Source of the DNA: Catenaria anguillulae PL171
Lineage: Eukaryota; Blastocladiomycota; Blastocladiomycetes; Blastocladiales; Catenariaceae
Assembly (NCBI GenBank): GCA_002102555.1
Contig: MCFL01000073.1
Coordinates: 1-64,000, forward strand
Direction: 5' to 3'
Length of the DNA: 64,000 nucleotides
Shown here: positions 6,768-46,469 of the stretch, piece after piece
How positions within the stretch are numbered: position 1 is the stretch's first letter
Layout of the letters: each line of letters starts with the position of its first letter
Position numbers and translations under genes: made by a program
The notes under the pieces: model-generated
Told to the model about the DNA's origin: nothing
Seen by the model: only the letters and a program-made list of their open reading frames with translations
Database searches by the model: none

Positions 6768-7156
6768 GGTGAGCTGATTTCGTGGGCTAATATTGATTCA
6801 TGGACTGCCAGGCAGAGTGGTGCTGAGTAGTGGAGATGGACCAAGGTTACTTTCGATGACTGTCAACCTCAACAAGCGTCACTTCAATCGCACGATCGGC
6901 GGCCGACATGGAGATTGGAGATCGAACCATTTCCGATCAGACTTGGCAGTCGTGGCAGATGGATACCAGTCACGTGTATGTCCATGATGCGAATGCGCTT
7001 CACCTCAGTTCGCTTCCTCCTCCTTTCCTTCCCACCTGGATGCGGCAATCCAATACGCTGCGATACACGCCCACAGCCACCAAATATCCATGCATTAGCA
7101 GTCCCGCTGCAACCTGTAAACCTGTTCTCTTACCATCCTGTCCGTCCTTCACCACC
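6768..7156. other. Divergent promoter region, ACP1 / NOP16
   Basis: 389 bases between two divergently transcribed genes. An upstream in-frame ATG at 6908 would extend NOP16 by 83 residues, but that part is not NOP16-like, so I treat it as leader. No specific element is identified. Confidence 0.4.
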
Positions 7157-7891
7157 ATGACCCGCCCCTCTGCCCGCAAAAAGGTCAAGAACCCGCGCCT
7201 CAAGGTCACCCGCCGCACACAAGACAAGCATTTCAAGCCAAAAGCCGTCGTGCACCCTGTCCTCGCAAAGGTCTGGGACAAGAAGAAGACGCTTGCTCAA
7301 AACTATGAAGCTATTGGCCTCTCACTAAACCTCAACTCGGCTGCGATTCCCGGCAGCAGTGGAAAGGGCAAGGTGCTCGAAACGGCGCTTCCATCCTCGT
7401 CGTCGTCGTCTTCAGAATCCTCGGACGCACTCCCTACCCCGGCGCTCCTGACCGAAAAGGGCAAGCGCATTCCCATCACGGACCTGTCTGCAACCATGCA
7501 CACGGGTGTGGTCCTGCAAGCCGCGAAAATCAAGCGTGATGCAAAGGGCAATGTGATTGGCTACGACGTGGATGACTTGAACCCAATGGACTCGGCGTTT
7601 GACGAGGTGCTTGCGCGCGCACAAGAGGCAAAGCCAAAGACAAAGACGGTGCAAGAGTTGATTGCCCTCGCCCAGAATGGCGTGACCAGCTTCAAGTTTC
7701 CGAGTTCGGGCCAGCTCGATTGGTTGCACAAGCTCGTGCAAAAGTATGGCGATGATACGCAAAAGATGGCCAGGGATCGGCATTTGAATGTCAACCAGCA
7801 CACACCTGCGCAGTTGACGAGGAAGTTAAAGGCGTACTGGAACTTTTTGCGGGCATACGAGGTCGAGGATGTCACCGAGTTGACCAAGTAG
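7157..7891 (+). CDS. NOP16: Ribosome biogenesis protein Nop16
   Basis: Nucleolar factor for 60S subunit assembly. A single exon gives 244 residues, near the yeast length (231). The start at 7157 was chosen because the family begins with a short basic segment; here MTRPSARKKVKNPRLKVTRR follows directly. HPVLAKVWDKKKTLAQNYEAI is the family's most conserved region (residues about 36-55). A Ser-rich, low-complexity insert near residues 75-95 precedes the conserved middle, and the C-terminus (TPAQLTRKLKAYW) matches the end of Nop16. It lies head to head with ACP1. Confidence 0.92.
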   Translation: MTRPSARKKVKNPRLKVTRRTQDKHFKPKAVVHPVLAKVWDKKKTLAQNYEAIGLSLNLNSAAIPGSSGKGKVLETALPSSSSSSSESSDALPTPALLTEKGKRIPITDLSATMHTGVVLQAAKIKRDAKGNVIGYDVDDLNPMDSAFDEVLARAQEAKPKTKTVQELIALAQNGVTSFKFPSSGQLDWLHKLVQKYGDDTQKMARDRHLNVNQHTPAQLTRKLKAYWNFLRAYEVEDVTELTK

Positions 7892-8718
7892 GAGGATCTG
7901 TGTTGTGTTGCTGCTTCTCTTGTTGTACATATATCATTACCCGGACTTTGTAACGTCGGTCAACCTCGCGCTAGGGCAATCGCACGCCCATTCGATACAT
8001 TGAGTGTCAGGTTTGGCGATGTATGACTGTCTCAACGGGTGTACACAAACGACATCTATCAAACGCTATGTAAATATTCAGGTGCAGATGCATGTAAAGA
8101 AGAGAACCCGACACAACCGGCGGAAGGAAGGCACGCCTTCGCGTCACGTGCAAGAACATGTTCCGCAGCCAATGGCGAAAAGTTGACGACTCATGACACC
8201 ATTCCATGAACCAACAACCAAGCAAAGCTGCGAACAAGATAACATCAGCACTATCTCTCTTGATCTCCTCTGATATTCAGCACATGAAAATCCATTCTGG
8301 CATCGAATTTCCGTCCGATCCGATCGTTCACCAACGCTGAAGCAGGCACCAAGAGCACTGCGAGTCTTCCTTGCACATAAAGCACTCGGCACAGCCCCCA
8401 TCCATCCCTCTCCTTCTGCAACTGCTGCCGATTCCAAGCCCTTCGCCGACAGCCAACACTGCCCACTGCGCACCGTCAGCTCAATCCTGAGCGGCCCCCG
8501 TCCGCTTTCGCTTTGCCCGAGTTTACTTCCCAACCGACTAACCGACCGACCGCCCGATCGAGTGTCAGCACCCGATTCCTCGCCCGTAAGCGTCAGCTGC
8601 GACATAACTTCTCTGGGCCCAATACTAGCCGATTCCCTCGGGCAGTTGTCCGCTTTTTCATCGTTCTACAAGTTGATCCTCTGCCGCGGTCGCCATCACC
8701 AGCACCCGCGGCTTCAGT
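7892..8718. other. Intergenic, 827 bases
   Basis: No gene supported. It comprises the NOP16 3' flank and, from about 8240, a pyrimidine-rich stretch that reads like a leader for the carrier gene. A CTGATATTCAG at 8268-8279 looks like a 3' splice site, so the carrier mRNA may have a spliced 5' untranslated exon. Confidence 0.35.
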
Positions 8719-9978
8719 ATGACTGGTGGATCCTCCAGCGACTCATCCCCTTCGTCTGCCCTCCGCGACATTGCCTTTGGCTCGTTTGCCGGCGTCTGCG
8801 GCAAAATCGTCGAGTTCCCAGCCGATACCGTCAAAGTCAAGCTCCAATCCCAGCCCATTGATGGCAGCGCAAAACTCTACAATGGCCCCGTCGATTGTTT
8901 CCGCCAAACTGTTGCCCGTGAAGGGTTTCGCGGCCTGTACCGCGGCCTATCGTCACCCCTCGTTGGCGCTGTGCTCGAGAATGCGACCTTGTTTGTGAGC
9001 TACAATCACATTCAAAAGATGATTCGGGCAAGTCGGGTGGATTCCACAGAGGATGGTGAGTTGACTTTGCCCGAGTTGTTCACAGCGGGCGCCTTGGCGG
9101 GCACCGTGGCGTCGTTTTTGCTGACGCCGATTGAGTTGGTCAAGTGCAAGTTACAGGTGCAGGATATGGCCAGGACAGGCGAGTTTGGTGCTGGTGCCAG
9201 CACCGTGACGGCTGCCGCGCCAGGTGTGAAGACCAAGGCCATTGGCAAGGAGCAGCGCAGGTACTATGCGCAGCCATCAGCACCGAAAAAGGGTGCGGCC
9301 GCAGCAGCGTTCCCATCGCCCACCACGTCTTCCATGTTTGCCGCAGCCGAGGCGTCGACAGCTTCGTCGGGCTTTTCACGTATCATCACTGCTGCCTCCT
9401 CCGCCCTCAGCTCGTCTGCCCGTCCCACCACAACGACCGTTGCCGCCCCAGTTGCGGCTGCTGGCGCCTATTCGGGCCCAATCGACGTGATCCGCCGCAC
9501 GTTCCGCACGCACGGCCTCGCGGGCTTTTACCGCGGCCACCTCGGCACCATGCTGCGTGAAACGGGTGGATCGGCTGCCTGGTTTGGTGTCTACGAAGTG
9601 GCCATCCGCCAGCTCATCCAGTACCATCAATCGCACTCGTTGCAAGGCGAGCAGCGTGTCATGTCCAAGGCCGATTTGGCAACCAGCGAGCTCCTGTTTG
9701 CCGGAGCACTAGCGGGCATTTCGTACAATGTGGTGCTGTTTCCCGCTGACGTGATCAAGTCGAGGCAGCAGACCGAGGACGAGCTCCGGGCCTTGAGGGG
9801 CAAAGACGCCAAGCTGACCGGTTCGGCCGGGTCGGGCTTTTGGCAAGTCGGCCGCAACTTGTATCGGGCCGAGGGCATTCGCGGGCTGTATCGTGGGTGC
9901 TTGGTGACCGTGGTCAAGTCGACCCCAACGTCGGCCGTCATTTTCGGGGTGTACGAAATGTTGAACCGCAATTTCTAA
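8719..9978 (+). CDS. ORT1: Mitochondrial ornithine carrier (SLC25, ORT1/Arg11-like)
   Basis: Inner-membrane carrier, most like fungal Ort1/Arg11, which export ornithine from the matrix for arginine synthesis. A single exon gives 419 residues against roughly 290-310 for the family. The three carrier repeats are marked by PADTVKVKLQ (residue about 34), PIELVKCKLQ (about 137) and PADVIKSRQQ (about 341), each followed by a GLYRG or GFYRG motif. GKIVEFPADTVKVKLQSQP in repeat 1 is the Ort1 hallmark. The excess length is an Ala/Ser/Thr-rich insert, about residues 147-250, in the matrix loop of repeat 2. Substrate is inferred from family resemblance only; a related basic amino-acid carrier is possible. 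Confidence 0.85.
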   Translation: MTGGSSSDSSPSSALRDIAFGSFAGVCGKIVEFPADTVKVKLQSQPIDGSAKLYNGPVDCFRQTVAREGFRGLYRGLSSPLVGAVLENATLFVSYNHIQKMIRASRVDSTEDGELTLPELFTAGALAGTVASFLLTPIELVKCKLQVQDMARTGEFGAGASTVTAAAPGVKTKAIGKEQRRYYAQPSAPKKGAAAAAFPSPTTSSMFAAAEASTASSGFSRIITAASSALSSSARPTTTTVAAPVAAAGAYSGPIDVIRRTFRTHGLAGFYRGHLGTMLRETGGSAAWFGVYEVAIRQLIQYHQSHSLQGEQRVMSKADLATSELLFAGALAGISYNVVLFPADVIKSRQQTEDELRALRGKDAKLTGSAGSGFWQVGRNLYRAEGIRGLYRGCLVTVVKSTPTSAVIFGVYEMLNRNF

Positions 9979-10433: not shown

Positions 10434-13400
10434 TCACGCGCCCGGGCGTGACGGCGGCTTTGGCGGTGCACTCAACAAGCTCGCCGGGTTGAAGGTTTCG
10501 CTCGACTTTGTCCGCTTGGCGAGCGATGGCCCGGTTGCTGGTGCACCGGTTGGCGACTTGGATGGCGATGCACTGGCAGATGCTGACGAAGCGGAACTGG
10601 AAGTCGCGATCCCAGCATTCCCACTGGCGGGCGTGGCGGGTGGTGTCGATGATGGTGGGTGTGAAGATTTGACAGCGGACACGAGCGAGCCAAATGCCCC
10701 TTTTGGTTTCGTTGCCGCCACGGTGGGAATCGCTGCCAGCTTGACCTTTTCTGCCGCCTGAGACGGGCTCGCTGCTTGTGCCTGTTGCTGATTCCCGCTC
10801 TCGGCTCCCGTTCCACCCCGTGCAACTGCCCCTGCAACCAAACCCTTGAACCCTCCAGAAACCTTTGGTTTGCTTGTCGAAGCGGCCTCCTTCGCGGCCA
10901 CTGTGCTTGAGTCGTTCCCACCATTCACCGCCGACGCCGACGCCTCAGCCGCACGCCTGGCCCTTCCCTTGAACAAGTTTCGCCTAAACTTGATCATGGC
11001 CAATCCAACATTTCCAGCAACCACAGCCTGATTGACACGAATACTTGCCGCTTCAGACTTGACAAGAATGTCCTTGACCACTGCCATGAGGTTTTGCGCC
11101 ACCGTGACCAACTGGCGCTCGGAATCCCCATCGCTCGGCCCCGCCGATGCGCGCACACTCGCGAGAATCTTGAGCTGCTGCGACAGTGTCGGCAGCCGGT
11201 TGGCCGCAGCAACCAGCTCAACGCGCAAGCGGCGGTCTGTGCACGCAAGGGCGAGTTGACTCGAGAGCTTTTGCAAGTTCCCACACAGGGCAACGATTTC
11301 CTTTGTGCTGGAAAGCAGCGACAGCTGCGACTGGGGGGAGTGTGTCTTGTACGCTTCGGCCAGATCGTGCAGCCGCTGAGACACGTTGGTCACGGTCGCG
11401 ACCAGATCATTGTCCTGGTGCGACCAGCGCGAAGCTTGCACAATGAGTTCTTGTGCAACGGCCTTGATTGGGTTAGCCTTGGCTTCTTCCTCGTCCAAGA
11501 GTTCGGGAGCTTCCTCCTCAACAATGACCACATCTTCGGCGGCCAAATTCGCGAGCGAGTCCGAGACAGGGTTGTGGACCGTGACAGGCATGACCGAGAC
11601 GGCAGATTTGAACTCGACGCGCTCGTCGATTTCGGGGTTGTTTGGGTCTTCGAGTTGCTTGACCGAGGCGCGAATAAGAGTCAGCAAATCACCGGGAATT
11701 GGTGCTGCAGATGATCCGACAGTTGGGAACGGAGATCCCCCATGGTTGGCGACCAGTGCGCCACAGTCGGTAATGAATTCTTGAACCTTGCGCACGTCAG
11801 TGGCTGGCAAGGACCGCGCGGTCGTCAGGGCATTTTGAAGCTTGCACTTGTAAGCTGGATCGTCAGTGTTGCCCGCTTCGTGTTGAATTGCCTTGACCAG
11901 TCCAGAAATGACGGAGGCAAGTTTGCCGACGTTGGAGCGAAGTGAGCTCGCCGTAGTTGAGGTGGACGAGAGCTGTTGAACAGCATGCAATGGGCGGGTC
12001 ATGGCTTGTGCCGAGTGAACAGCTTGTGAAGCTGTGAAAGTATCGTATGCACCAAGTGTCAACTACTGCGCAAAACAACTGCAAAAAAAAAGCAACGCGT
12101 ACATAGTCCGGAGAGCACGGCTTGACTTGGTACAGCCGAGACAACCGCGTCCTTGGCTGAGCCAAGGGCCGTATTCCATTCTGCCGCGGCCGTTTGCGCT
12201 TCCTGGGCGGCAGCCTGCTGCGCGGCCGCATCGCCGGATCTAGCCCCGTTTGCCACTGCATGAATCGCGTCCAAGACACGAGGGGCCACCCTTTGCACTT
12301 GATGTACTGCTTCTCCGAGGCCAAGAGCTTCAAGCCCTCGAATAGCTCCGTCGGCTGATTGCTTGAAACATGTGGCGGTCAAGTCGCCATCTTGATGTGC
12401 AGCAGCAATGAGCGATTTGGCGTCCATGTTGGCAGACTCGATCAACTTGGTCGCATTCGACTTGGCGATTCGATATGCGCTCGACTCCAAGTCGTCATGG
12501 GCCGTGGCTGCAGCGGCCAACCAATGCTCACGAGCACGATCAAGGCTGGCTTTGGTTGTGACATGAGCAGGTGTACCGCGCTGGCCTTTGGCTTCGAGAT
12601 CAGCAACAGCCTTGGCAGCGGCTAAGAGGGTCTCGGTTGCCAACCTGAGCGTGTCAGCAGTCTCGACGAGGTCCGGGTTCGTTCGCAGAGTTCCCTCGAG
12701 TTCCTTGGCTGCAAGTGCAAACTTGTCAACTGATTGACGGGTATCGCTGGTTGTTCCCAGCTCCAGAGCAGCAGCTTTTGCGTGGGCGAGCGCGGCAAGC
12801 CCTGAACCGAGAAGTGTTTGAGCTTGAATCCCATCGGCTTCAGCTTGCACAGCATCCAGCGTCGAGCCCCAGCGATCCAATAGTACATCACGTCGATCGC
12901 AAATGCTCTGATCCGCGCCTGGTGCTGCAGCTTGGCGGGACGCCGCAATAACAATAGGAGCAAGTGCGGCGAGTTGGTCGGCGGCGTTCCCACAACCAAG
13001 TCCTCGAAGCGTAAGTGCAGCCGAATCGGCCGACTGACAAAACTCGTCTGTGGCTTCATCAATCGCTTCGAGGTCCGTTGCCTTGGAGAGCCGCTGGAAA
13101 ACCTTCTTGTTTTTCGCCAGAGTGTACGCAAGCCTCTTAGAAGCTTGTTTTTGGCCAACAATGGAGCGTGCCCTGTCAGCGGCATCGTTGTAGCGTCCCA
13201 CGGCAAACGTGAGCGACTTGCGCGCGGATGTGACTTGAGCTGATTCGGGGCCATGGACTGCGATTTCGGTCAGCAGAGCATGGCTGGCCAAGGTAACGTC
13301 ATCAGAAGCAGCCGCCAGCACATTGGCGGTATCGTGGCACTCGAGCTGATTGAGATCGACAGCCGCCAACTTGGTAGCTGCAGCAAAGTCGGACACGGCA

Positions 13401-16400
13401 GCATGCACGTTGGACGATGTATCGAGACTGTTGGCAAGGATTTGACTGCGGTCCAGGTTGCTTACGCCGGTCGATTGGACGGGTTGCGATTGAGCAGCTT
13501 CCATCGCTCGAGTGGCTGTTCCGTCGTCAACCAAAGAGCCCAGGTAAGGGAAAATGAACGAAACACACCAGATTCATACAAAGAAAAGACATACCAAGCA
13601 CACTTAGCAGCGTATCTGCAGGGTCGGCCGCCGTGGCACCTTCCTGAGCCCTGGTAACGACTTGGTTCCATTCACGCACCAGGCGTTGCAGTTTGGCCTC
13701 GGAAGAGGCTGCAGCATCAGGATTTGTACTGGCTTTGGCCGTGGTCAGCTCCTTGGCCGCTTCGACGACGTTCTTTGCCTTGTCCTTGAGTTCGGTCGCA
13801 TCCTCATTCCGCCCAATATCGCTCAACGCTTGCGCCGCCAAACCTGCGGCCTTTTTGAACCCATTTTGGCCACCCTCGCTCGCCAGCGCGGCAACAGTTG
13901 TCTTTGCCGCTTCCAACTCGGCCACTACACTCTGCAATTGTGTTTGATACGCTTGTTGCACCGCCTGTTTGCGTACCTTATCCGCAGTCGCTGACCATTG
14001 TTCAAGCGCGACATCCAGCCGAGAACTTGCAAATTTGTGCGCGCGCGAATTGGCGTCGTCGTCGGTCGCTTGCAAGTCGCGAGCGGCGGCGCGTACGTCC
14101 GAAATGGCCGTGTCGAGCTCGAGTGAGGAACCCAGCGCACCTGCAGCTTTGAGGTCAAGGGATGCTGCGGTTGCGTCGTGCAAAAACTTGTTGAGGGCGA
14201 TCGGATTGGGTTTCCCACCATGTGCAGCCGAGCGAATCGCAGGTGCAGAGGCTTTTGCTTGGTCAATGTGAAGGATGGCCGAGCCAAGTGCACGCTCACG
14301 CGTCGAAGCATTCAGGTGCGTGGCAAGCTTGTCGATGGCGGCGTTGAACTGGCTGATGGCCGCATTGCGCTGAGTCGCAAGCTTTTTGAACTCTTCAGCA
14401 TCGCCATCTGCGGCATCGACTGCTGCACGAGACATGAGCGAAACTTGTGTCGCAAGTGTCGCCAGTTCGTCGGCATGCGTGGGCAAGTTGACCGACTCGG
14501 TGAGCAACTGGCAAGCGTTCTCGGTCGCACGGGCGAAATCCTGGTCCGCGTCGGCAAACCCTGCTTTTGATGACCCGCAAAGTGCAATGGCTTTCTCCTT
14601 GCACAGCTCTACTTGGCCCAACGCGGAGTCTGTGTTGGCCTGCTGTGCAACGACTCGGCGCGAGTTGGCCAATGCAGCATTCCAACTGCAAACGGATGCA
14701 TTCAGCAAATCCTGTGCAGCTTTGATCTGGGCCGGATCTTTTGTCTTTTTGGCGTCCAAGAGTGCATTGGCGGCATCAGCAAGCATTTTTGCGGACGATT
14801 CGACGGATTCAGCCTGTTCTGATAGGTTGAGTGCTTGCATGTCTTTAGCGACCGAGCCGCAGTCGGCCATGAACTTGTCAATTGCGGCCGAGTCAAAGTT
14901 GCCTGTTCCGATTCGGTCCACGCTGGCGCCAGCACGATCCAGATTACCGGAAGCGGCACCCTTTGCACGAGAAGCTTCAATCGCCTGCAAGTTTTCGGCA
15001 ATGTGTGACACTTTTTCACCAAGCCCAACGCAAATGGTGAGCTTGAAGGAATCGTTGGGGAAGCGACAAGTCATTCGACGTACCTAATCCAAGCACAACC
15101 TCGTCGCCAGACACGCTCTTGATCACCTGCTCCCTGGCCTCATCCACTTGTCCCGACAGCTCACCCAGGACATGCCCCAAGTATGCCCGGTTTGCCTCCT
15201 GGGCCGTGGGATCGTTTGCAGACTCTGCCATGCTCCTTGCCACACTCACAACTGTTGGAACTGACCCTTGAATCGGATTTGCGGCCCTAACCAGTCCCAG
15301 TGCCTTGAGCCCTTGCACCGCCGCCTGCCCTGCAGCCTGTAACTCGTCGGCCTTGGCCTCAACCACGGAGGGATCCGACGCTCCGCTTTCCCTGGCAGCC
15401 ATTGCGTCCAACTCGTTTGCACACTCACTTACTTGGTCCAAGGCACTCAACACTGCGCCAATCGCCTCATGCTGGCTCATCACGGCCGCCATGTCAACCT
15501 GCTTGGCCAAATGATCCGCAATCCCCTGAATCCGTTTGGCATGCAGCTCGTGTAAATCTTTGGGTGCGCCTTGCGCGTCCTGGATGGCGTGAGCAAGCAA
15601 CCCCACCGCAATTTGCGGCTGCTTGTTGTTCCTTGCCCACGGCGCACTGTCAATATCTGCTTGTGCTTGCTGTACGGCCGCCATGGCGTCTGCAGCGGCA
15701 ACCTCGAGCTCGTCGCCCTCTGCCAGCGATTCGAGTGCATGAACGTATCGCTTGATGCGCGCACGGACAGGGTCAATGCGTGCTTTGCTTGTGCTTGCGA
15801 GCGACCGGCGGCTGCCTGCAGTCGTGGCTGTAAGCGACGCGAGTGCGGAGGTGCCATGATTGGCTGAGAGTTCGTCTTGCTCTGCTTCTTCTTCGATAAT
15901 GTCACCTAGGGCTCCCTCGGGCATGTCGTCCTTGACAATGTATTGCGCAATACCCTCGCAGGCGCGCGCGTGCACCTTGAGCTGGCGCTTGACCAGGTCA
16001 ACGTTGGCAGGAACGATTTGGTGCGATCCGGCAAGCGCATACTTGAGTGCGGCAATGGTTCCCACCGCCGCACGATCCAGTGCATTCGAATGATGTGTCA
16101 GCGCGCGCTGAATCGGAGGTGAGAGCAGTTCGGGAATGCGCGCGTGGACCAAGTGGAACAGAAACACGGATTGCTGTGCGAATGTGCGCGCATTGTCCAG
16201 CAACGACTTGATGACGGGCGGCGAGTCGAGGTCCGAGCCAAGGATGGTGGTGATGAGCTTGGATTGATCAACCAGGGCACGTGCGACAACAAGCGACTTT
16301 TGGATTTCCGAGTCGTCATAGGTGTTGAGGATCCGCTGCGTGCCTTGAAGAATGCCCTTTGTGGCCTCGACGAGCTGCTTGCGGCCAGCGGCAGAGAAAG

Positions 16401-16792
16401 GGTCCGAAGCGAGCGTTTGAGTAACGGAAACAAGGAGATCGCCTGCAGCTCGCACTATGCATTTGTTCATATGGGAACAATTCTTAGCAGGTCTCCTCGT
16501 TCACGTTGACGCTTCGGAGGGCAAACGAACCTTCAGCGCACGCGTCCGTCATGTCCTTGAGCAACCTTGTCACATCCACGATGCCGCGCGTTTCAGCGGC
16601 CAGCGCCGCCGGGTCAATCAGTCCATGGCCAATCTCCGCGAGCGAATAAACGTGCTGAGCAACGAGCTGTGCAACGTCGCGCAGGTCTGGGATGGGCGAC
16701 CCATTGAGCTCGGCCTGTGCTGTGATCACAATCAGCTGCGAAACGGCGTCAGCGATGGGCGACAAGAGCGATTTGGTTGTTGCTGTCAGCAT
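10434..16792 (-). CDS. Vinculin, expanded to about 2,019 residues
   Basis: Actin-binding adaptor; in animals it links talin/integrin or cadherin sites to F-actin. Exons 16792-16531, 16454-15084, 15010-13595, 13515-12103 and 12031-10434 sum to 6,060 nt. All four introns (71-79 nt) are phase 1. Exon 1 (SPIADAVSQLIV, AELNGSPIPDL) aligns without gaps to the vinculin D1 head, and the join at intron 1 continues the alignment through LASDPFSAAGRKQL and GILQGTQRILNTYDDSE. Near residues 1680-1845 is a vinculin tail: ASRWSHQDNDLVA, CTDRRLRVEL, RLPTLSQQLKILASVRA, AQNLMAVVKDILVKSEAASI. The linker before it is acidic, not proline-rich. Between head and tail lie many Ala-rich helical repeats of about 112 residues with a conserved aromatic; animals have two or three. 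A disordered Ala/Ser/Pro tail of about 175 residues ends the protein. Confidence 0.93.
12103..15010 (-). repeat. Tandemly duplicated exons carrying vinculin repeats
   Basis: Exon 3 (15010-13595, 472 codons) and exon 4 (13515-12103, 471 codons) are both flanked by phase 1 introns and hold four helical modules each. A conserved aromatic falls at exon positions 110, 222, 339 and 448 in exon 3 (SW, QF, QW, EW contexts) and at 109, 216, 332 and 447 in exon 4 (RY, RW, HW, EW). The two exons are therefore in register with a 107-117 residue period, as expected from tandem exon duplication. Confidence 0.75.
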
Positions 16793-17251: not shown

Positions 17252-18030
17252 TTACATGAGGGAACAGCACTGATTGTTCTTCTTTGCGGTCTTGTAGAAT
17301 GCCCGGGTACTCGTTGACAATGCATTGGACCGCTCAACGAGCGAATCGAGCTTCTCTTCACGCTCCAGGACCGACTCGATAGTTTTGTGCTGCGCGTACG
17401 GGGCACAATAGTGTGTCAGAACATTTCCAGAGATGGACGTAGGTACAAAACTCCCGAAAAGAAAAGGAGAGCGTACCAAGATGACCTTGGTCTCGTCCAA
17501 CTCCCTTTGCACCCGCATCAAGTTATCGGCTGCATGCGGGTCCTGATATTTGTTGAGGGTCTCCCGCAACACTGGGAATTGGGCACTCGCCGTCGACGGC
17601 GTCAACGTCGACCACGTGTCCGCGGGGAACTTTGCGGCGAAGTCGTCAATGCACTTTGACAAGATGGTGAACGAGACGCGCAAAGGGTACTCTTGGTCCG
17701 TAATGATGACGGCCGCGAGCTTGTCGCCAGGGCGCACAAAGCAGTGGATCAAGTACGAGTCTTGCTCGACGGATTGGCGTTGGCCCGCTTGCGTGCGCTC
17801 GGCAAGGGTTTGTGAGGTGAAGTTCATGAACTCTTGGACGCTAGTGCATGTGACAACAAGTTGGGTTGAGGTGTGAGGTGGGGTAACACTATACCGTGAA
17901 GCAGACGCGGTTGAATGAAAACTCACCTTCCACGCTGGAAGAAGCCAAACTGGCTCAACTCGTACTCGGCGGCACGAATGTCGGCGGGCCGCGAGTTTGC
18001 CGTCAGCAAAAGAATGGCATAGATCTTCAT
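17252..18030 (-). CDS. YKT6: R-SNARE Ykt6
   Basis: Longin-domain SNARE for ER-Golgi, endosomal and vacuolar/autophagic fusion, cycling between cytosol and membrane. Exons 18030-17927, 17840-17477, 17389-17252 give 201 residues (human 198). It begins MKIYAILLLTANSRP, the longin start; AERTQAGQRQSVEQDSYLIH is the family's most conserved longin segment; the SNARE helix runs from ADNLMRVQRELDETK across the last intron to ESVLEREEKLDSLVERS with the zero-layer arginine. The C-terminus CCSLM gives a palmitoylated cysteine followed by a prenylated CaaX cysteine, as in Ykt6. Splice sites are GTGAGT and GTACGC donors. It is divergent from VPS60. Confidence 0.97.
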
Positions 18031-18502
18031 GGGTGGCGGCGAGTGACGGGGTTTCCGTGGGGCGGGAATTTGCTGCAGTCTGGGCGATTTCCTGTCGTTT
18101 GAACGGTGCGGCGTGGCAACTAGTCAGTTGATAAATGTACATGTGCTCGAGCGGCAGGTCGATTGCCAGTGATGTGACACGGGAGCGGCATCCTCATGCG
18201 GCGATGCCGGGGACGATAGAGAAGGGCGGCATGAGCGGGCGGATTGCATGAAGAGAAGCATGGGAATCAGGCATACATACAGTTGTGGTGATAACATGTC
18301 CATCTGCATCCTCACATGTGTTGGTTGCTTTGGCGTTGAATGGTGACTTGGAAGAGGTTCGTTTGCGCCACACTATCGCCAACTCGACGAATAACCTAAA
18401 CCTAAACCTAACCTAATCCTCATCACCGAATCGCGCGAGTTTGGTCTTGGCATCGCGATTGTACAGGAATCCAATCCATTGCAATTCACCTCACTTTCCA
18501 CC
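18031..18502. promoter_or_regulatory. Shared divergent promoter of YKT6 and VPS60
   Basis: 472 bases separate two membrane-traffic genes transcribed in opposite directions, so they probably share regulatory DNA. The only conspicuous element is a telomere-like tract at 18394-18416. Confidence 0.45.
18394..18416. repeat. Telomere-like (CCTAAA)n / telobox tract
   Basis: Two CCTAAA units are followed by CCTAA variants, a short interstitial telomere-like run of the kind called a telobox. It sits about 90 bases upstream of the VPS60 start codon. It could be a transcription-factor site or a relic of telomere-mediated repair. Confidence 0.7.
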
Positions 18503-19649
18503 ATGAATCGCTTCTTTGGCACCGCAAAACCCAAGGCAACGCCGTCGCTCAACGACGCCATCTCCTCTGTAAGTGCCCTCGTCCACTCGCTCGGCATGCA
18601 CCAGCGCGACGTCGACCCGACTGGCCTCACCCTGACTCGATCGCAAGATCGCTTGCTCACTTGCCTCTCCGCTCTCCCGGCTCCAATGAATATCATCATG
18701 TAGACGGACGCACGCGCCGACTCTGTCGAAGTGAAAATCCGCAAACTCGATGCCGAGCTTGCCCGATACAAGGACCAGATGGCCAAAATGCGTGATGGCC
18801 CGTCCAAGGTACCTTGGAATCCATCCACTGGCAAATGACATGTTCCTTCCTGTCACCCCTGCCGCTATCCAGCCGTGCACACACGATTTCTCACACACAC
18901 GGTTGGCCACAGAACGCCATCAAGCAACGTGCCATGCGCGTCCTCAAGCAGCGCAAGTTGTACGAGGGCCAGCGCGATACGCTCATGCAGCAGTCGTTCA
19001 ACATGGAGCAGGCGGCCATGGCAACCGAGAACTTGAAAAACACGGCAGCAACCGTGGATGCAATGCGTGTAGCGAACGCGGAAATCAAGAAGCAGTACAA
19101 GGGCATCAATATTGAAAAGATTGAGGCATGTCGCGAATATGCCCATGCGTAGATCATGATGAGCGGAGTTGACTGATACTTTTGTTTGGTTGCGTCTGCA
19201 CAGAAAATCCAAGACGAAATGGACGACCTATTGTACGCCGCTAACGAGCTGCAGGATGTGCTTGGCCGGTCGTATGGGCTGCCGGATGACATTGACGAGG
19301 CGGATTTGGAAGCCGGTGCGGCGTTATCCCAAGCAAGCGCGTGCGGCAACATGTCTTGTGTCCTGACCGTTATGTTGCCATTGTCATTCCATTTAGAGCT
19401 CGAGGCGCTGGGCGACGAGCTGCTCATGGAAGACGAAGAGGTGCCCAGCTACTTGCAAGAACCCGACGTGCCCCTCTCCATGCCCAATGCGGCCGATTTG
19501 CAGGACCCGACGCTTGCGCCTGCCGAACCCGCGCAAAAGCAGCCTGGTACGACAACATGTGTCTAATTTGCATACTGGTTTCGTGGTTGGCTCTGGATCT
19601 CACTGCGGTGTTCTTAACAGATCCAAATGCACCTCTCAAGGCGACCTGA
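18503..19649 (+). CDS. VPS60: ESCRT-III related protein Vps60/Mos10/CHMP5
   Basis: Late-acting ESCRT-III family member that binds Vta1 and regulates Vps4 in multivesicular-body sorting. Exons: 18503-18568, 18704-18808, 18913-19125, 19204-19315, 19397-19546, 19621-19649; total 224 residues (human CHMP5 219). It starts [20 protein letters not shown], almost the CHMP5 start. [20 protein letters not shown] and [20 protein letters not shown] are the basic core helices; [13 protein letters not shown] and [19 protein letters not shown] are the C-terminal MIM-region helices. Intron 3 (19126-19203) needs a GC donor (GCATGT); skipping it would break the family alignment at the [10 protein letters not shown] join. 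All six exons keep phase. Confidence 0.95.
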
Positions 19650-21671: not shown

Positions 21672-21975
21672 GGTAGGTAGGGAAATTTGACGACGTGTCG
21701 GGCTGTCGATTGATCGAGCTTCGAACTGGCAAATCGAATCCGATCGGCCAATGCCACGTGGTCCATCACTACATACTTATGTTCATATGAAATAACGAGT
21801 AGTAGCATACAGGCACACATTGCCATCCGACGCAACGTAGCACTCTCTGCATTGGACTGAGAAGGGGCACCACTGCTGCTTCACTGAGCTTCATTCCATT
21901 TGCGCCCACTCGCATCCCGCCTCTGATCTGATTTTGCCTTGCCCTTGCCGACCTCGCAGCCCAGCCAGGGACACC
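21672..21975. other. Divergent promoter region, PAP2_C gene / Brr6-like gene
   Basis: 304 bases between divergent start codons. The sequence CCAATGCCACGTGG at 21749-21762 includes a CACGTG E-box, a plausible bHLH site. Nothing else is recognised. Confidence 0.4.
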
Positions 21976-24485
21976 ATGCTGTCGTCCAGCTCGACTTCGG
22001 ATCACCGCCGCGGCATCGAGTCGCCCATGGATGTCGACCGCAAGGGTCCCTCCATCTTTGCCTCCTTGACGGCTGCCGCTGCCTCCAACAATGCCGCCGA
22101 GTCCTCCACCTCATCGTCCACTTCAGCGTCGACCACTTCCACTGCCGGTTCAGCCTCTGCACCGTCCTTGTCCACCTCCATCTTTGGCTCGGCCACTGCG
22201 TCGTCCTTCAAGTTTGAAATGCCAAAGGCGTCCCCTTCTCCCACGTTCCGATCCGCCGCAGCGACACTCGCTGGATCGGACGACTCTTTTTCCACTTTGC
22301 GCTTTTCCACTGCCCTCTCGCAATCGTTGCCCCGTGACTCTGGAATCGCTCACGAGCAAGACCGCCACGGCAACCAAGGTAATGGTACTGATCCCTCTCC
22401 TTACCCCACATCTACCCCACTCCCTTCTTTGGGCGGTCGCCCCTCGCCATTAGACGACTCGTTCGACCTGTCAGACCAACTCTCTGGTGTTGCCACGCCA
22501 GTGTCTCCCAACTCGCCAATCAAGCTCAACCTCGACATAGACAATGATTCGGACGACCAAGACGGACCTTCTGTTTTCGACGGTACTCCACTTGCCCGAC
22601 CCGCACGGGTCGCTCGGCGCCTATCCAAGGGCTTTGTCCGCCGGTTTACAGCTTCAAGTGCAGCCGCTGCAGCAGAAGCCAGCGCTCAATTGGATGCTGA
22701 TGAGCCTGCACCCACGACTCCAACCCTTGGCAAACACAAACGCATCACCGCCCGCGCCCCTCCTCGCTCTTCTGCTCGCACAATCACTCAAAGGAATGTG
22801 TTTACTCACCACGATTCGGATTCCGACCACCCACCTCCACCCTTTACATCTACTCCTGCTTCGCCTCGTGCCGCACAATTGCCATCCTCGGCACCCACAT
22901 CCACCACACCATCCCGTCGTCTTCGTCATTGTGATGATCCCCTTCCATCCACTCCAGGAACCACAAATGCCAATCATTCCTCCATGCCGCCGCCATCGTC
23001 ATCGCACCGACCCAACCCTCGATCCACGCCTGGTTCCAACCATCTGCATTCCACCCCGAACCGAACCCCTGGCCACACGCCGCGCCTGGGCAACCTCAAC
23101 CCCACGCTGACGCCTCGCGGGACTCCCCGGCACAAACGGCCGCGCCGCGACTACGACGACTCTGACCACCACACTGACTATGGGTCAGGCGACGACAACG
23201 ACATGTATGACGCGGGCGGCGCGGACGCATCCATCATGTACCTAGGCGAACGGTTCCACGGCCACAACCACCAGTACATGCCGCCGCCACCACCCATGCA
23301 GCACACGCCCTATGGATTTGCACACCAGCCGCAAATGTGGGTCCAGCAGCCGTTTTACCCGTATGCCACGCCGCAGGGCGTTCACGTGCATCCACAGGTC
23401 ATTTATGGGCCGCCGCCCGCACAGCCCCAGTTCCTCATGCATGGCCAGCAACAGTCGCACATGAGGCGACCGCACCCCATGTTGAATTCCGATGACGAGC
23501 TGGGCGATGAAGGCATGGATGGGATGGGCCATGGGGATGGAGGCGAGGCAAGTGTCACGCATTATTCACACTCGCACTCGCGCTCTGCGCGCGCGGTGGC
23601 AGCCGCATCGCACTTTTCGGTTCAATCGTACATGGATTCATTCAAGGTGATTGTGGCCACATGCGTTAGCTCGAGCGCACTGGTCGTCTTGGCCTATGTC
23701 ATCTACTTGCAAATCATGACGGGGCATGCCGCGCACGTGACGGGCATCCAGGTCGAAATGCAAGCATGTGCGCGCAAGTTTCAAGAGAACCAGTGTGGCG
23801 CGTCGTCGGGCAGGCCGCCCTTGTTGGCCGATGCGTGCTTGCAGTGGGAGCAGTGCATGGCTAGGGATCCGCACAAGGAGGCGCATTATGTGACCATCAT
23901 TTTCAAGAGCTTAAGTGAAGGCGCCAATGTCGTGGTTGCCAATTTGAGCACCAAGGCGCTTGTGTTTTACGGGACTTTGGCGGTCGCTTTGGTCTTGGCG
24001 TTTCGGGCAAGTTGGTGTTGTGCATCGAGGCGCAAGGAACGCGGGAGGAGCAAGAGTCGGAGTCGCAAACAGCAGCAGCAACAACGCGAAGCGGACGATG
24101 GGTCAGATGTCGATCAAGGTGGGTATCAAGGAGGAAATGGCCCAAGGCGGATGCAAGAGCCCGCGCCGTGCCGGGTGATTTCATGGGCGCAGGGGGACCA
24201 ATGTCCATGGGCGGCGCACCAATGGCCATCATGCCGCCGCCAAGTTCCACGACACGGCACATGCACCACCAACGCGGGTATGCCCCGCAACAGCAGCAAC
24301 AGCCGTCGCCGTTCGGGACGCCAGTGTTCCAGAACGGGTACTATCAAGATGCACGCTCGACACCAGGGTCGTCCGGGAGGATGGGCATGAATGGCGGGGG
24401 TTACGGGCAGCGCCAGCATCAGCAGCAAGAGACGCCGAGCCGGATGCCGACGGCAGGGTCGATGAGGAGGAGGAGGCAGGGGTAA
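21976..24485 (+). CDS. Brr6/Brl1-type nuclear envelope protein
   Basis: Integral nuclear-envelope protein of the Brr6/Brl1 family, which acts in nuclear pore assembly and membrane lipid balance. Exons 21976-24118 and 24193-24485 (intron GTGGGT...GCGCAG, 74 nt) give 811 residues. Residues 1 to about 540 are disordered (Ser/Thr/Pro-rich, acidic patches, His/Gln/Tyr-rich stretch). The conserved domain starts with SVQSYMDSFKVIVATCVSSS as the first transmembrane helix. The lumenal part has CARKFQENQCG, then ACLQWEQCMARDP, supplying the four cysteines of the family's disulfide motif; a second helix is near KALVFYGTLAVALVLAF. The basic RRKERGRSKSRSRK stretch and a Gln/Gly/Met-rich tail follow. Family assignment is firm. 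The N-terminus is far longer than in yeast Brr6 (197 residues) or Brl1 (471). Confidence 0.9.
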
Positions 24486-26851: not shown

Positions 26852-28063
26852 TCACGCCTGGACCGTACAAGCCACTTCCACCCAGAGCTCCACTTGGAGC
26901 ACGCCAAAGCGGTTGTCACTGGAGACGATGACCACAGCTGTGGCGGCTTTGAGTTTCGCGACGTTTTCCGGCAAAAAGGCTCGGATGACCATATCCATGT
27001 CGGTCTCCTCTGTCATGGATCGGAAAGCGGGAGTATACTCGACCAGCTTCGATGCGGTCCACTTAAAGATATATGTCAGCCACTGGTTTGAATTGACGAG
27101 TGGGAGAGGATGGACGCAGGGATGAATGGAGATAAACATGTTCAAATCACGCACCTTGCGATACTCGCCAGCGAGCCCGTGCGCGTACACGTCGAGCCAC
27201 GGCGACTTGTCCAGCGCGTCCACAAGTTCTGGAGACCCGTGGCGGTTGTCGGCGTCCACGAGCACGATTGCACGTGGCGGGTGACTTGAGTTGCCCTTGG
27301 CCTTCCTCCAAGCCCTCGACTTGTTGAGAGCAGACACAAAGAACTCGACCATTGGTGGACTTAGGCTGCGCACTTGGTGCTCGTCAAGACACGCAAACAA
27401 GTCACCAACCGACGAGACCGAAGTGAACGTGGTTGATTGCAACCACGCCAAGAACTGCCCATCGGCCGATGATGTTGCGGTGGCAGGCAATGATGTCGCC
27501 AACGCCGGCAAAGAAGCATGGAGTTGCAGCCGGGCAAAGTCATCCTCGTGAAGCCTCACACACTTGTGGTGCAAGACATTGCTGGCGTGCACCATGGCAA
27601 TGAAGTGCATACAGCACATGGTGAGCTGTTCCATGCGCTTGCGGCGTTGTTGTTGTTGTTGCTGCTGCTGACTGGCTTGCCCGCCCGCAATTGGAACATG
27701 GCCCGATGCGCCATTGGTGAGCAATCGAGCAACAGAAGGCGTCAATGAAGAGTAACTGCGCAAGTGATCGAGCCGCACCGTGGACGCTGGCGCGACGGCA
27801 GAGGTTGCCAGCTGAGCGGGCAAGGTTGACAGCGCAGGTGCGTCGTGTGCTGTTCCGTGAGGCGTGGGGACTTGCGGTGTAGTTGATGACGACAAGGGGT
27901 TGCTAGCTGAGACAGTAGGTGTGGGCGCGGGTTGGGACGAAGCAGCTGGCTGAGGTGCCGCGGCGGCGGCGGCGACGTCCCAGCTTGCCAGTGCCCACAG
28001 TGTCGGAAAGGCGGAACCCATGGTTGCCTTGACTGACTCGACGGTTTCCCACAACGATTTCAC
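26852..28063 (-). CDS. NYN/PIN-like ribonuclease domain, fused downstream of transposase
   Basis: The frame runs on from the transposase (LWETVESVKATMGSAF) through a Pro/Ser/Ala linker and a polyglutamine run (about 27640-27670) into a domain with the NYN pattern. AIVLVDADN is the first strand with paired acidic residues, LDVYAHGLAGEYRK a second strand, ETDMDMVIRAFL the acidic helix, and AVVIVSSDNRFGVLQVEL the final SxDxxF-type strand. An intron starting 27154 (GTGCGT) ends at 27083 or 27062; both keep the frame. NYN domains are metal-dependent ribonuclease-like folds. Whether this is a working chimeric protein, a captured host exon, or part of a larger mobile-element protein cannot be told from sequence alone. 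The domain match is by motif pattern only. Confidence 0.6.
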   Translation of the reverse strand: MKSLWETVESVKATMGSAFPTLWALASWDVAAAAAAPQPAASSQPAPTPTVSASNPLSSSTTPQVPTPHGTAHDAPALSTLPAQLATSAVAPASTVRLDHLRSYSSLTPSVARLLTNGASGHVPIAGGQASQQQQQQQQRRKRMEQLTMCCMHFIAMVHASNVLHHKCVRLHEDDFARLQLHASLPALATSLPATATSSADGQFLAWLQSTTFTSVSSVGDLFACLDEHQVRSLSPPMVEFFVSALNKSRAWRKAKGNSSHPPRAIVLVDADNRHGSPELVDALDKSPWLDVYAHGLAGEYRKVRDLNMFISIHPCVHPLPLVNSNQWLTYIFKWTASKLVEYTPAFRSMTEETDMDMVIRAFLPENVAKLKAATAVVIVSSDNRFGVLQVELWVEVACTVQA

Positions 28064-29685
28064 TGAAACCTTTTGGGCGTTGTTGCCAGAACCAGCGAGG
28101 ATGCGGGCGCGAATCGCCTTGAGGACGTGGAATTGGCAAAGTTGGGCAATCGAATCTGGGAAGGCTGATTGGTACGCGCCAATTTGAATTTTGGCCGAGG
28201 TCTTTGTCCGTTAGACAAAAAAGCGGGTCGACCATGGAAAACTTGGCAGGCGCCGGGTCCTCAGGTGGTGGCGTGGCAGGGTACGCGTCGGCAAACTCGC
28301 AAAGGAACTGGGTGATTGTATCCGTGCGGTCGCCAGGGCGGACTTGACCGGCAGCGAGCAGCATGTACGCCAAGGAATACGAGCGCTGATGCGCCATTCC
28401 CATCAAGGCGAGCAGCTCGAAGCCGTCAACATTTGTTTTGAATGTACCGTCCATAATGAGCACCTCGGTGGTTGTCGTGGGGCACGTCTCCATCAGCTCC
28501 TCACCAACCTTAGTCGTAAAGCCAATGCACTGCCGTGCGTCGCCACCGTCTTGGCAAACAAGCAGCCGCCCAAGGTATTTGCGACAATTGTCGTCGGTCG
28601 ACAACAGTGTCCAAATGTGGGCAATGCTGTTGAGCCCCCGAAACGCTTGCCCGCCACGCGCCTTGCACACAGTGTACAAAGACGTGCCGTTCCGACGGCC
28701 ACCATTTCGACCTCAAACACCGCATGGGCAAGTACGAGTACATCCGGAAAAGTTCGGTGGCAGTTGTCAATGACCAGTTGTTGCAACCCTGACGAAATGA
28801 CAGGACGCGTGCGGTGCTGGTGGACGTGGGGATGCGAGTAGCGGACGCAAATGATGCCGTCACGCAGGTAGTCATTGGTCGCGTGTGGCGAATTACGGAT
28901 CCAGTTGATGGTTGCTGGTTTGGTGACGTGGGAAATCTCGACGGCCCCAGCCAACTCGTCCGTGATGGGATTGAGGTCTTGGGCATCGAGGCTCATACTG
29001 TTGAAAGCGTAGATGAATGTGTCGATGGCCCAGACGTCTGTGGTTGGCGCATCCTCGTCAATGACCTCGGCAACGGAGGTGCGGGAGGTGGCGTTTACAA
29101 TTCCTTGCCTCGTGATCGGAGCGACATGAAGGCTGCGGTGGAACAGTAGACTATGGTGAGACACTTTGTATGTACATAAGCAAGGAAATTTCTGAAGATG
29201 AGCCACTGGTTCAATCCCGTACGCTCGTCAATGGAGTCAACGTACGCATCCCATCCACCGTCAGACGTGTCGTACAGCCTGACCTCAACCGTTTCACCCA
29301 CCGCCCGAGGTGCCATTGGAATCATGACCCATTTGCCGCGTCGGACGACAATCTCGGACCCAGGATATTCATCGTCCACAGTCACACAAACCTCGTTCCC
29401 ACGGCCACAGTGCATAATGCTCAGCGCGAACACGGCATCCGCCTCGAGTGCTTCGGGAGGCGGCCGAACGGTAATGAGCTGCTGCATGGGAGGTCCGCGA
29501 ATCACGGTCAGAATACGAGGCGAATACCTCGGCCCGAAATGGCAGGGTCCCTCGCCGTCGTGACAGTACGAAATGGACTTCCCGCTGATGTACGGCGGCG
29601 TGCCCTGAAGCTTGTCAAGAATGTTCTGACGCATCTCCGGCGTTTGTGCGTGAAGGTTGATGCGGCAGCCGTCGGTACAAGCCAT
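27950..29685 (-). pseudogene. Decayed MULE-type DDE transposase
   Basis: Pieces read VLIMDGTFKTNVDGFELLAL (first catalytic Asp), then PLFCLTDKDL followed in another frame by AFPDSIAQLCQFHVLKAIR, a pattern typical of Mutator-like (MULE) transposases. Two one-base frame changes are needed, near 28684 and near 28195, and the third catalytic residue is absent because the frame enters the NYN linker. The N-terminal exon (29685-29246; MACTDGCRINLHAQ start) matches no family I know and can join at a phase 2 intron (GTACGT donor, acceptor at 29133 or 29151) to the transposase frame. It could be degenerate DNA or an assembly with indel errors. Confidence 0.7.
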
Positions 29686-37404: not shown

Positions 37405-37659
37405 CTTGCTTAAACCAATCGGCGTCCCACAGATCGGACCGCCGCTTCTGCCGATCTCCTTCCCTCCCATTCCCCACCATCCCATCTCGACGTGTCTCAG
37501 TGATGGATTGCCCGCAACTTCTCGGCCAAGATCTACATGGCCAACTCCCGTCCATCCGTAGCCTGCTGCCAGAATTCTTGCGACGCTCTCCTGCTCCTCC
37601 TCTGCCGCCGCCGCCGCCTGCACCCGCACCCTGGCCACAGAATCCACCTCCCCTCGACC

Positions 37660-38985
37660 AGGAATGTTGTCGAGTTACAGAAGCGTGGCCTTCCACATGC
37701 GCATATCCTGGTTGTCCTTGCCGAGGATTCGCAGCCCCTGGATCCTTCCATGTTTGATGCGTTTACTGCGCGAGATCAATGTGATGCTTGGTCGGCATGG
37801 GAAGAGTCTTGCCGACTTCCCGCCATTTCCCATTCCACCGCCAGTACAAGCTGGTGCTCCCGCACGCAATGCACTTATTCAAGAACAACAATCCCTGTGC
37901 ACCCCTGACTTGGCCGATTTTCTTGAGCTCAACCTGCCGAGGCTGAATGCGGATCAGCGCGCGGTGTTAAACGCAGTTTCCACTGCGGTTTTGTCGGATC
38001 AGTCTGCTGTGTTCTTCGTTGATGGACCTGGCGGGACAGGTAAAACGTACACGTACAAGTTACTGTTGGCTCACCTCCTCTCAGAAGGCCGGATTGTCCT
38101 TGCAATGGCTTTTTCCGGTATCGCTGCTACTTTGTTGCTGGGTGGACGAACTGCGCACTCGCGGCTGAAAATTCCCTTGTCCTTGGATGCGAATTCGACG
38201 TGCAAGATTCCAAAGCAAAGCGCTCATGGCGAGCTGATTCGGGCCGCGTCCGCAATTGTTTGGGATGAAGCGGCCATGATTCACCAGCATCCGTTTGAGG
38301 CGGTTGATCGGACTTTGCGTGATGTGCGCGGCGTGCCTGATGTACCGTTTGGAGGCATGGTCGTTGTGTTTGGTGGGAATTTCCGGCAGACGTTGCCTGT
38401 CGTTCCAAGGGGCGGGCTGGCAGAAACCGTGTCTGCATGCATCAAACGGTTGCCCCGCTGGCAACATGTCACGACGTTGCGTTTGACGGTCAACATGCGA
38501 GTCCAGCAGGCAAGCTCCAACAAAGAGACAAGTGCCAGCGATATCCGTGAGTTCGCCGATTGGCTGTTGCACGTTGGCGATTTAGCATTGCCTCTGATTC
38601 GTTTCGTCTATTTGAACCTCAACAAACGCCTCACAGAGGCAAGCATCCAGAGTGGTGCTTCCAACTCTTGGCTTGCAGAACGGTGTGCCCTTGCGCCGCT
38701 CAACTAAAACGTCCGCGTTATCAACAATGCCACGATTCAGTCGCTCCCTGGGACTCGGCGCTCGCACGTGTATCGCAGAGCGGATACTTGCGCTGATGCC
38801 CTTCGAGCTGGCGCCGATGCGCCTTATCCCACGGAATTCCTAAACACACTTCAGTACCCTGGTATGCCACCTCATCACTTGGAACTCAATCCAGGTGTGC
38901 ATGTGGTCTTGATGAGGAATCTTGATCCGAATGCGGGACTTTGCTCTGGAACGCGTATGGTTGTAGTCCAGTGTGCGTCTTGGGT
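37660..38985 (+). mobile_element. Helitron relic: Rep (HUH) fragment joined to PIF1-type helicase
   Basis: Frame 1 at about 37668-37740 reads VVELQKRGLPHAHILVVLAE, the HxH metal motif of the Helitron Rep nickase. The next frame continues at once with helicase sequence: LREINVMLGRHGKSLADFPP, LNADQRAVLNAV, Walker A DGPGGTGKTYTY, GIAATLLLGGRTAHSR, Walker B VWDEAAMIH, GGNFRQTLPVVPRGG and LRLTVNMRV. The parts normally between Rep and helicase are missing. A TAA at 38705-38707 interrupts the frame, which then resumes with NVRVINNATIQSLPG and GVHVVLMRNLDPNAGLCSGT. So it is a non-autonomous, internally deleted and broken copy. The terminal TC and CTRR ends were not located. Confidence 0.88.
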
Positions 38986-44225: not shown

Positions 44226-46469
44226 TCATGATCGCGACGGAGTCCCCGGTCCACTCTCGCCAATCCCCTGCTGCCCAACATGCCCGAGTCCCGCAGGCGA
44301 CGCCGTCCCATTTGCTACCCCCTTGGGTGACATGAGCCCCAAAGAATGCTCGGCCAACCTTGGCGTGGACCCCATATGCGGTGTGGACGATGCGGACGTT
44401 GCATCCGACCGGAGCTGGTCGGTCGACGTCGCGCCCGATGGCGGATTGGACGACGTGGACACACCAGGACCGGGTGGAACAGTCGCGTGTGGGTTTGGAG
44501 CGGCCGACGAGGGAGGAGGAGGAGCGGTGCCGTTTTGTTGGTCAATGAGCGAGGCCATTTTTTGCAGTGTTTCTGGGTTTCATGTGTGACAAGACGAGAT
44601 CAGTCAACCCATATGCGAAAAAAAAAAAAAAAAATTTAAGACAGGTGAGGAAAACGTACGAAGCGCGCCTAGATTCATGCCCTGCGAGTACAAGATGATA
44701 TCTTTCATGCAATTGACCACATCCGCAATCTACTTGCAGGCGTTGTTAGCTCACGTTTGCTCAAGTCCAAGTGTCAAGAAAACAAGGGCACATACCTCCA
44801 ACGCCCGCATCAACCTTACATGCACCCCATTCTCGTTTGCCACGGGCTCAGGCACACTCATGGCGGGCACGGGGACGGGCGGCGGCAAGGTGCGCAAGTT
44901 TGCGGCCTCCTCCTCTTCCTCCTTTTTCCTCTTGCGCGTTGTGCGTGTGGCCGACGTGGGCGGTGTCATTTCTGCCAGTTCACGTTTGACTGCTGCCGCA
45001 TACGCCTCGGCTGCAGTGGTCCACGCGCCTACGGCCTTTGCAATGGCCGCACGATCAATCGCCTCGTCAAACCGTTTCACGGCCAAGTCCCAAAACTCGA
45101 CTTTCCATGGATTGGCCATCAGCGGTGAAGATGAGGCGCCAGAAGCGTTTGTGTCGCGCGCAAACGTGACACGCAGTGCACAATACGACACCACGACTGA
45201 CCCGTCAAATTGTTGGATAAGCGTGCACGTTGGCAAGGTCACAACCATGGATCCCGTCGGCAGCTCGTGTTCCTGCGGCGTCGACGTGACTGCAAACGCC
45301 ATGTGCGACATGCCGCACAGGGCAAAGTGCAGCCAAAAGTACCGCGGAAGAAAGCCCGAGGGCAGGTCGAATTGCCGCGTTGTGGATTGCGGTTGGCCAG
45401 CCGCGGCGGCTGCAGCTGCGGCAGCCGACGACGAAGAGGATGGCGCGGTCGTGTATCGTAACGTGGCATTGGGCAGAAAGTGCCGCAGGACCATTTGTGA
45501 CCAGTGGGTCATGTCCTTGCCCACGGCGGGTGTGGGCGGCGAGTGGTCGGCAAGCACCATAAACAGTTTGGCCGAGGCCGACAGAGGGTGTGGGTATGGG
45601 AGTGAGGGGACATGTGATGGAGGTTGGATCGATGAAGGTGTCGAGGACATGGCGCGGAGTTGCTGTTGTTGTTGTTGTTGGTGGTGTGGCGGAGGTGGTG
45701 GCGGTGCAACATGTTGCGGTTGCGGCTGCGGTTGCGGTGTTGCTGAAGGTCGTGGCGGGACAAGCACGGAGCCCGCGCGTGAGGGTGGGCCCATTGGATT
45801 GGGCTGGAATTGGGGTTGTTGCTGGTGTGGTGGTGGTGGTGGTGGTGGTTGCTGGGGCTGCTGCACCATCATCATGCCAGAGTGCTGCTGCTGGATTTGC
45901 TGCTGTTGTTGTTGATGCAGGGCGGCGGCGTGCTGCTGCTGCTGCTGGAGCTGCATTTGCTGAGCGTGTTGTTGTTGCTGCAATTGTTGCTGCTGGTGCA
46001 TGGCAGCCATTTGCTGTTGCTGTTGCATCTGCTGCTGCTGAAGGACAGCATTGTGCTGAGCTTGAGCTTGCGCCTGTGCTTGAGCTTGTATCTGTGCTTG
46101 GGCCTGTGCTTGAGCTTGCGCTTGTTGCTGCTGCTGCTGCTGCAATTGCATCTGCATCTGCATTTGCTGTTGCAGCTGAGCCTGCTGTGCCGGATTCATG
46201 CCATTGCCGCCGCCGCCAGAACCGCCTCCTCCGGGACCCATGGACATGGTGGCACCCCCAGCAGCTGCGACGGCCATAGCCTGCTGTTGGTGTTGCTGCT
46301 GCTGGTAGTGTTGTTGCTGGAGCTGCTGCTGCTGTAAGTGTTGCTGCTGCTGCTGCTGAAACTGGACCTGGGCCTGGGCCTGAGCCTGGAGCTGCTGCTG
46401 TTGCTGCTGGTGCTGGTGGGCGGCCAGCAGCTGCAGCTGGTGGGGCGTGAGTTGCTGCTGCATTTGCAT
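44226..46469 (-). CDS. LIM-domain-binding protein (LDB/Adn1-like) with long polyglutamine tract
   Basis: Transcriptional adaptor: LDB1 in animals, Adn1-type regulators in fungi. Exons 46469-44796, 44729-44660 and 44572-44226 give 696 residues. About 270 residues of Gln-, Ala- and Pro-rich sequence come first (multiple runs, including alternating QA). The LIM-binding domain begins near SAKLFMVLADHSPPTP, with HWSQMVLRHFLPNATLRY, SGFLPRYFWLHFALCGMSHM and CTLIQQFDGSVVVSY. A basic KRKKEEEEEAANLR patch follows, then IADVVNCMKDIILYSQGMN across intron 2 and a disordered tail. Start at 46469 is the first ATG after a possible acceptor; upstream frame begins with TTG. The antisense strand has long Cys/Val frames that are only the mirror of the CAG-type repeats. 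Confidence 0.85.

Follow-up and report, generated by a model that had tools for sequence, protein, structure and literature searches.

A long vinculin of Catenaria anguillulae with two paralogous exons in its head

In animals, vinculin anchors adhesion sites to actin. Vinculin joins talin or catenin to actin and is closed by contact between its head and its tail; the human protein has 1,066 residues in eight bundles, according to passages of PMC5501900. Here, we describe a vinculin gene of the blastocladiomycete Catenaria anguillulae PL171, located at 16792-10434 on the minus strand of the window, by which we mean the whole stretch of DNA analysed (64,000 nucleotides, positions 1 to 64,000 of contig MCFL01000073.1).

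Vinculin in flagellated fungi is already known. Sections of PMC5042518 report it in Orpinomyces, with a Spizellomyces vinculin as the best match, and in Batrachochytrium, and the legend of Figure 1 there places Allomyces macrogynus among the genomes surveyed. The same sections describe transcription in Orpinomyces as higher during zoosporogenesis and germination, and highest in germinating spores, and they propose non-adhesion roles for the protein (PMC5042518). In Dictyostelium, excerpts of PMC12686525 indicate that tension on talin is lost without a vinculin/catenin relative and that the same relative is not enriched with talin.

The Orpinomyces vinculin, as it appears in the sections cited (PMC5042518), belongs to the same family as the C. 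anguillulae protein. A preliminary description of the window had treated a vinculin in a fungal genome as a surprise; its presence stands, while the surprise does not, since fungal vinculins had been reported (PMC5042518). What is new is the route by which the extra length arose: among the titles and abstract openings listed from the open-licence literature, we found no description of head doubling by exon duplication or of differing arrays in related genera.

Vinculin identity and gene structure

That both ends are genuine vinculin, as proposed in the preliminary description, is borne out by profile and structure-database searches. These searches, the homologue searches and the Blastocladiella emersonii alignment are numbered by an earlier 2,015-residue model; the final numbering is higher by four after residue 87. 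The vinculin family PF01044 matches at E 4.6e-37 (128.3 bits, against a curated cut-off of 38.1) and is the sole Pfam family in the protein at E up to 0.001, so the profile search called for in that description gives vinculin above its cut-off. A Protein Data Bank (PDB) search matches 46 distinct sequences, with animal vinculin first (E 1.9e-28), and the animal vinculin chains cover residues 3-147, the D1 head domain, and 1658-1817, the tail. Judged by its sequence, the protein is a genuine vinculin, closer to vinculin than to alpha-catenin. With animal vinculin and metavinculin (PDB 1TR2, 6UPW and 7KTT), it shares the D1 head, the actin-binding tail and conserved tail residues, and it differs from human vinculin in its 2,019 residues, in about eight extra predicted bundles and in a C-terminal extension of about 176 residues.

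Two other identities were considered and rejected. Alpha-catenin has a related fold and tail, but its far weaker score (9.3e-7 vs 1.9e-28) comes from the tail alone, and D1 is matched exclusively by vinculin chains among the PDB matches listed. A talin would have a FERM head and an I/LWEQ domain, and PF01044 alone was matched at the threshold given above.

In the tail, I1776 and V1780 align with human I997 and V1001, both residues being kept, and D1753, R1754, R1755 and R1757, within the kept CTDRRLR segment, align with the T12 patch. We take it that I997 and V1001 mutants are affected in actin binding and T12 patch mutants in head-tail closure. I997, V1001 and T12 are used as names of human vinculin tail mutants in passages of PMC5384775.

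Joined together, the five exons of the gene encode 2,019 residues uninterrupted by a stop, and our splice model reproduces exactly the coordinates (10434..16792), exon number and protein length first put forward. Exon A (16531..16792; all features of the gene are on the minus strand) carries the ATG at 16792 and the first part of D1, residues 1-87, as judged from the splice model and the match to animal vinculin D1. Intron 1 (16455..16530; phase 1, GT...AG, 76 nt) has its acceptor set by alignment with the B. emersonii protein P0001: the 2,015-residue model left a four-residue gap against that protein, and the first acceptor was therefore placed at 16455, giving 2,019 residues. Exon B (15084..16454) holds the remaining D1 and the ordinary central part of the head (residues 88-544), on the basis of PF01044 and the P0001 alignment; by itself, its reading frame matches PF01044 at E 8.5e-11. 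Beyond intron 2 (15011..15083; phase 1, GT-AG, 73 nt) lies exon C (13595..15010), an inserted exon of residues 545-1016 in which paralogy with exon D suggests four bundles. Intron 3 (13516..13594; phase 1, GT-AG, 79 nt) separates it from exon D (12103..13515), also inserted, which spans residues 1017-1487 and has four predicted bundles (AlphaFold, Foldseek). After intron 4 (12032..12102; phase 1, GT-AG, 71 nt), exon E (10434..12031) encodes the last head segment, a linker at about 1585-1670, the actin-binding tail, the C-terminal extension and the stop, and its reading frame alone matches PF01044 at E 1.6e-26.

With the linker so placed, the head before it has about 1,584 residues; it is long, as first described, but the original figure of about 1,650 is slightly high. 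Prolines number 9 of 86 linker residues here, 20 of 80 in B. emersonii and 8 of 71 in Allomyces, with linker ends set by judgement. A predicted model of the B. emersonii relative has a D1 of seven helices and a tail of five.

Exons C and D as the source of the extra length

The original observation of a protein about twice normal length in a fungal genome agrees with our model; what it missed was that two of the exons are paralogues and that Allomyces and Sorochytrium have arrays of other kinds. The paralogy of C and D runs from end to end; together they amount to 943 residues, and phase-1 introns flank them. When they are removed, the A+B+E product aligns over nearly the whole length of the 989-residue B. 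emersonii protein. The usual vinculin architecture has about 900-1,130 residues with up to seven head bundles, and the 2,019 residues found here, 943 of them extra in C and D, make this protein a variant of it. On the sequence comparisons available, the middle of the head is roughly doubled through two duplicated exons, and since C and D share only 23% protein identity, the duplication is old. The AlphaFold model of exon D (pLDDT 82.4) predicts four helical bundles of the vinculin/catenin type, and the first 21 of 452 rows of a Foldseek search with that model are vinculin/alpha-catenin chains. When the exon D sequence was shuffled 2,000 times, no shuffled version was open in any of the three forward frames.

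A second, collinear copy of window positions 3-23596 is present on contig C235 in three blocks (L005-L007; 91.8, 96.3 and 97.2% identity) and stops at the contig end; it is most simply read as the other haplotype, left uncollapsed. The vinculin gene in this copy is 97% identical, and all its exon boundaries are conserved. Over 6,060 coding bases, the two copies are separated by 93 differences and no indel, and indels occur in two of the four introns (6 nt in intron 3 and 1 nt in intron 4). Divergence is 11.8% in intron 1 and 0.4-2.4% in the exons (0.44% in exon B, 2.44% in exon E), with no mismatch in introns 2 and 4; this patchiness possibly reflects patches of gene conversion or recombination.

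Between the copies, dN/dS is 0.24 overall, 0.03 in exons A and B, and 0.38 in C and D. The tail has 11 synonymous and no nonsynonymous changes (dN/dS 0), and exon A has five and none, respectively. In C and D, there are 23 nonsynonymous and 20 synonymous changes, which differs from the neutral expectation (one-sided binomial p 0.002; 0.026 for each exon taken singly). By these measures, the pattern in exons C and D is that of coding sequence under constraint, looser than that on the ends.

A probable talin-actin linker and its partner genes

We consider it likely that the gene encodes a blastocladiomycete orthologue of vinculin with a body lengthened by internal duplication, which would probably be an autoinhibited link from talin to actin whose longer body, made up of multiple bundles, would bear force. 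The protein would consist of a D1 head, a body of helical bundles, a linker and an actin-binding tail. Its lengthening would have proceeded from bundles of about 117 residues to a block of four, followed by copying of the entire block between phase-1 introns to give C and D. Once expressed, the protein would be closed by head-tail contact, as other vinculins are thought to be, and would open where talin is under load, the protein then bearing force between talin, bound by D1, and F-actin, bound by the tail. The roughly eight extra bundles might add reach and provide further folded units able to unfold under load. Of the spring-like long body imagined in the preliminary description, the chain of helical bundles is thus predicted, and the spring-like behaviour and an adhesion or motility role are suggestions.

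The same genome has a talin on contig C246, located through its I/LWEQ and FERM pieces (F0 2.5e-13, FERM_M 3.3e-25, PTB 9.8e-28, IBS2B 9.4e-8, I/LWEQ 6.6e-29; one of the four talin-locus frames scanned has no family). The best PDB match of the long reading frame there is talin-1, 3.2e-18, vs 2.7e-15 for Sla2, and a separate Sla2 with ANTH and I/LWEQ domains is present. An alpha-actinin is also present; a single frame holds both its CH domain (1.8e-26) and its Ca-insensitive EF hand (8.4e-10). The partner search first suggested thus yielded talin and alpha-actinin; integrin beta, paxillin and the talin middle domain gave no Pfam match in the genome, where the controls matched nowhere either, so that their absence is not demonstrated. 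The Sra1/PIR121 family has ten matching stretches, in two loci on two contigs (C75 and C57; L020-L027), which makes a WAVE-complex gene likely; four of the ten contain in-frame stops, from introns or decay.

It is possible, though we think it rather unlikely, that the linker joins actin to something other than talin, for example, in zoospore formation or germination. The transcription pattern and the non-adhesion roles proposed for Orpinomyces (in the sections of PMC5042518 cited above) would suit such a partner, as would the empty integrin beta search, with its empty control set, and the Dictyostelium talin that lacks vinculin enrichment (excerpts of PMC12686525). Against it stand the D1 domain, matched only by vinculin chains among the listed matches, and the presence of a talin gene.

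Relatives of other lengths and the surrounding window

A homologue search with the tail region returned six proteins, among which animal and Spizellomyces vinculins were absent. With the whole 2,015-residue model as the query, none of the 7,999 candidates scored was a match, which the frequency of alanine-rich words probably explains. An alignment-query search, limited to scoring the 8,000 candidates with the most words in common, gave three proteins (P0001, P0007 and P0008) and did not recover P0002-P0006, although these were rows of its query. Given these omissions, neither search is a census.

B. emersonii P0001 (989 aa; 64% identity over the searched tail region) aligns with A+B+E and, as deposited, is without exons C and D. 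Allomyces javanicus P0007 (1,415 aa) and Sorochytrium milnesiophthora P0002 (2,525 aa) have the same ends and a lengthened middle, with internal repeats of other kinds: at 388-809, the former has repeats of about 108 aa, and in the latter, a block recurs about 800-850 residues further on. The chytrid vinculins P0003-P0006 (894-949 aa) share the family but are of ordinary length; used as a profile, they align with A+B+E over 868 columns. A metagenome protein, P0008 (2,056 aa; E 1.5e-8), matches the A+B+E profile at its ends (P 4.5e-5 and 2.9e-4), so that overlong relatives of vinculin may exist outside the fungi. P0008 is a long repeat protein that matches itself at an offset of about 134 residues.

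Taken together, the vinculin head looks like an accordion that was lengthened more than once. It is tempting, but speculative, to propose that repeated, independent duplication of bundles or exons in Blastocladiomycota (989, 1,415, 2,019 and 2,525 residues) tunes how far the link between talin and actin reaches and how compliant it is, and that in C. anguillulae, phase-1 cassette exons could allow a single gene to produce heads of several lengths. Among the proteins seen, the animal chains and the four chytrid vinculins have lengths near 1,000 residues. A fungal lineage in which length varies, with symmetric exons in one species, allows the purpose of the vinculin head to be tested in nature: the number of bundles might determine its response to force, its reach or the number of its partners. 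The same lineage is relevant to the question of why talin and vinculin are retained in fungi that reportedly have no integrins.

A rather unlikely alternative to our preferred account of a body lengthened by internal duplication is that the long form is ancestral in Blastocladiomycota, B. emersonii having lost C and D or its gene model skipping them, and the Allomyces and Sorochytrium arrays being the same array diverged beyond recognition. The old duplication implied by the divergence of C and D would fit, as would the lengths of the blastocladiomycete proteins seen, three of four (this one counted) exceeding 1,400 aa. We give still less weight to ordinary vinculin being the main product, with C and D as optional in-frame cassettes spliced in the manner of a larger metavinculin to give isoforms of 1,076, 1,547, 1,548 and 2,019 residues. 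In its favour are the shared phase, 1, of the four introns, the open, stop-free frame of each of the four exon combinations tried, and the match of the A+B+E product to nearly all of the B. emersonii protein; however, exon duplication alone also yields the phase symmetry. An assembly or annotation artefact (gene fusion or tandem mis-assembly) is very improbable: C resembles D, and assemblers can be troubled by repeats, but the two exons are too different to be confused, and the collinear copy on C235, with the same order and no coding indel, leads us to reject it.

Adjoining the vinculin gene, at 17255-18193 on the minus strand, is a frame with Longin and synaptobrevin domains, Ykt6-like by eye, and a Snf7/CHMP4-like frame was seen, by eye only, near 18800-19560. 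Other neighbours are housekeeping genes by Pfam: a Glu/Gln tRNA synthetase (357-1622), Nop16 (6860-7888), a mitochondrial carrier (8677-9975) and a Brr6-like protein (21841-24387). Two long minus-strand frames (26855-28210 and 62276-64000) match no Pfam family at E up to 0.001 and appear transposase-like by eye. Further along the window are a PIF1-like helicase frame (37562-38704, plus strand), possibly part of a mobile element, a LIM-domain-binding protein frame (44754-46679, minus strand) and a poly(A) polymerase head-domain frame (46812-48839, plus strand).
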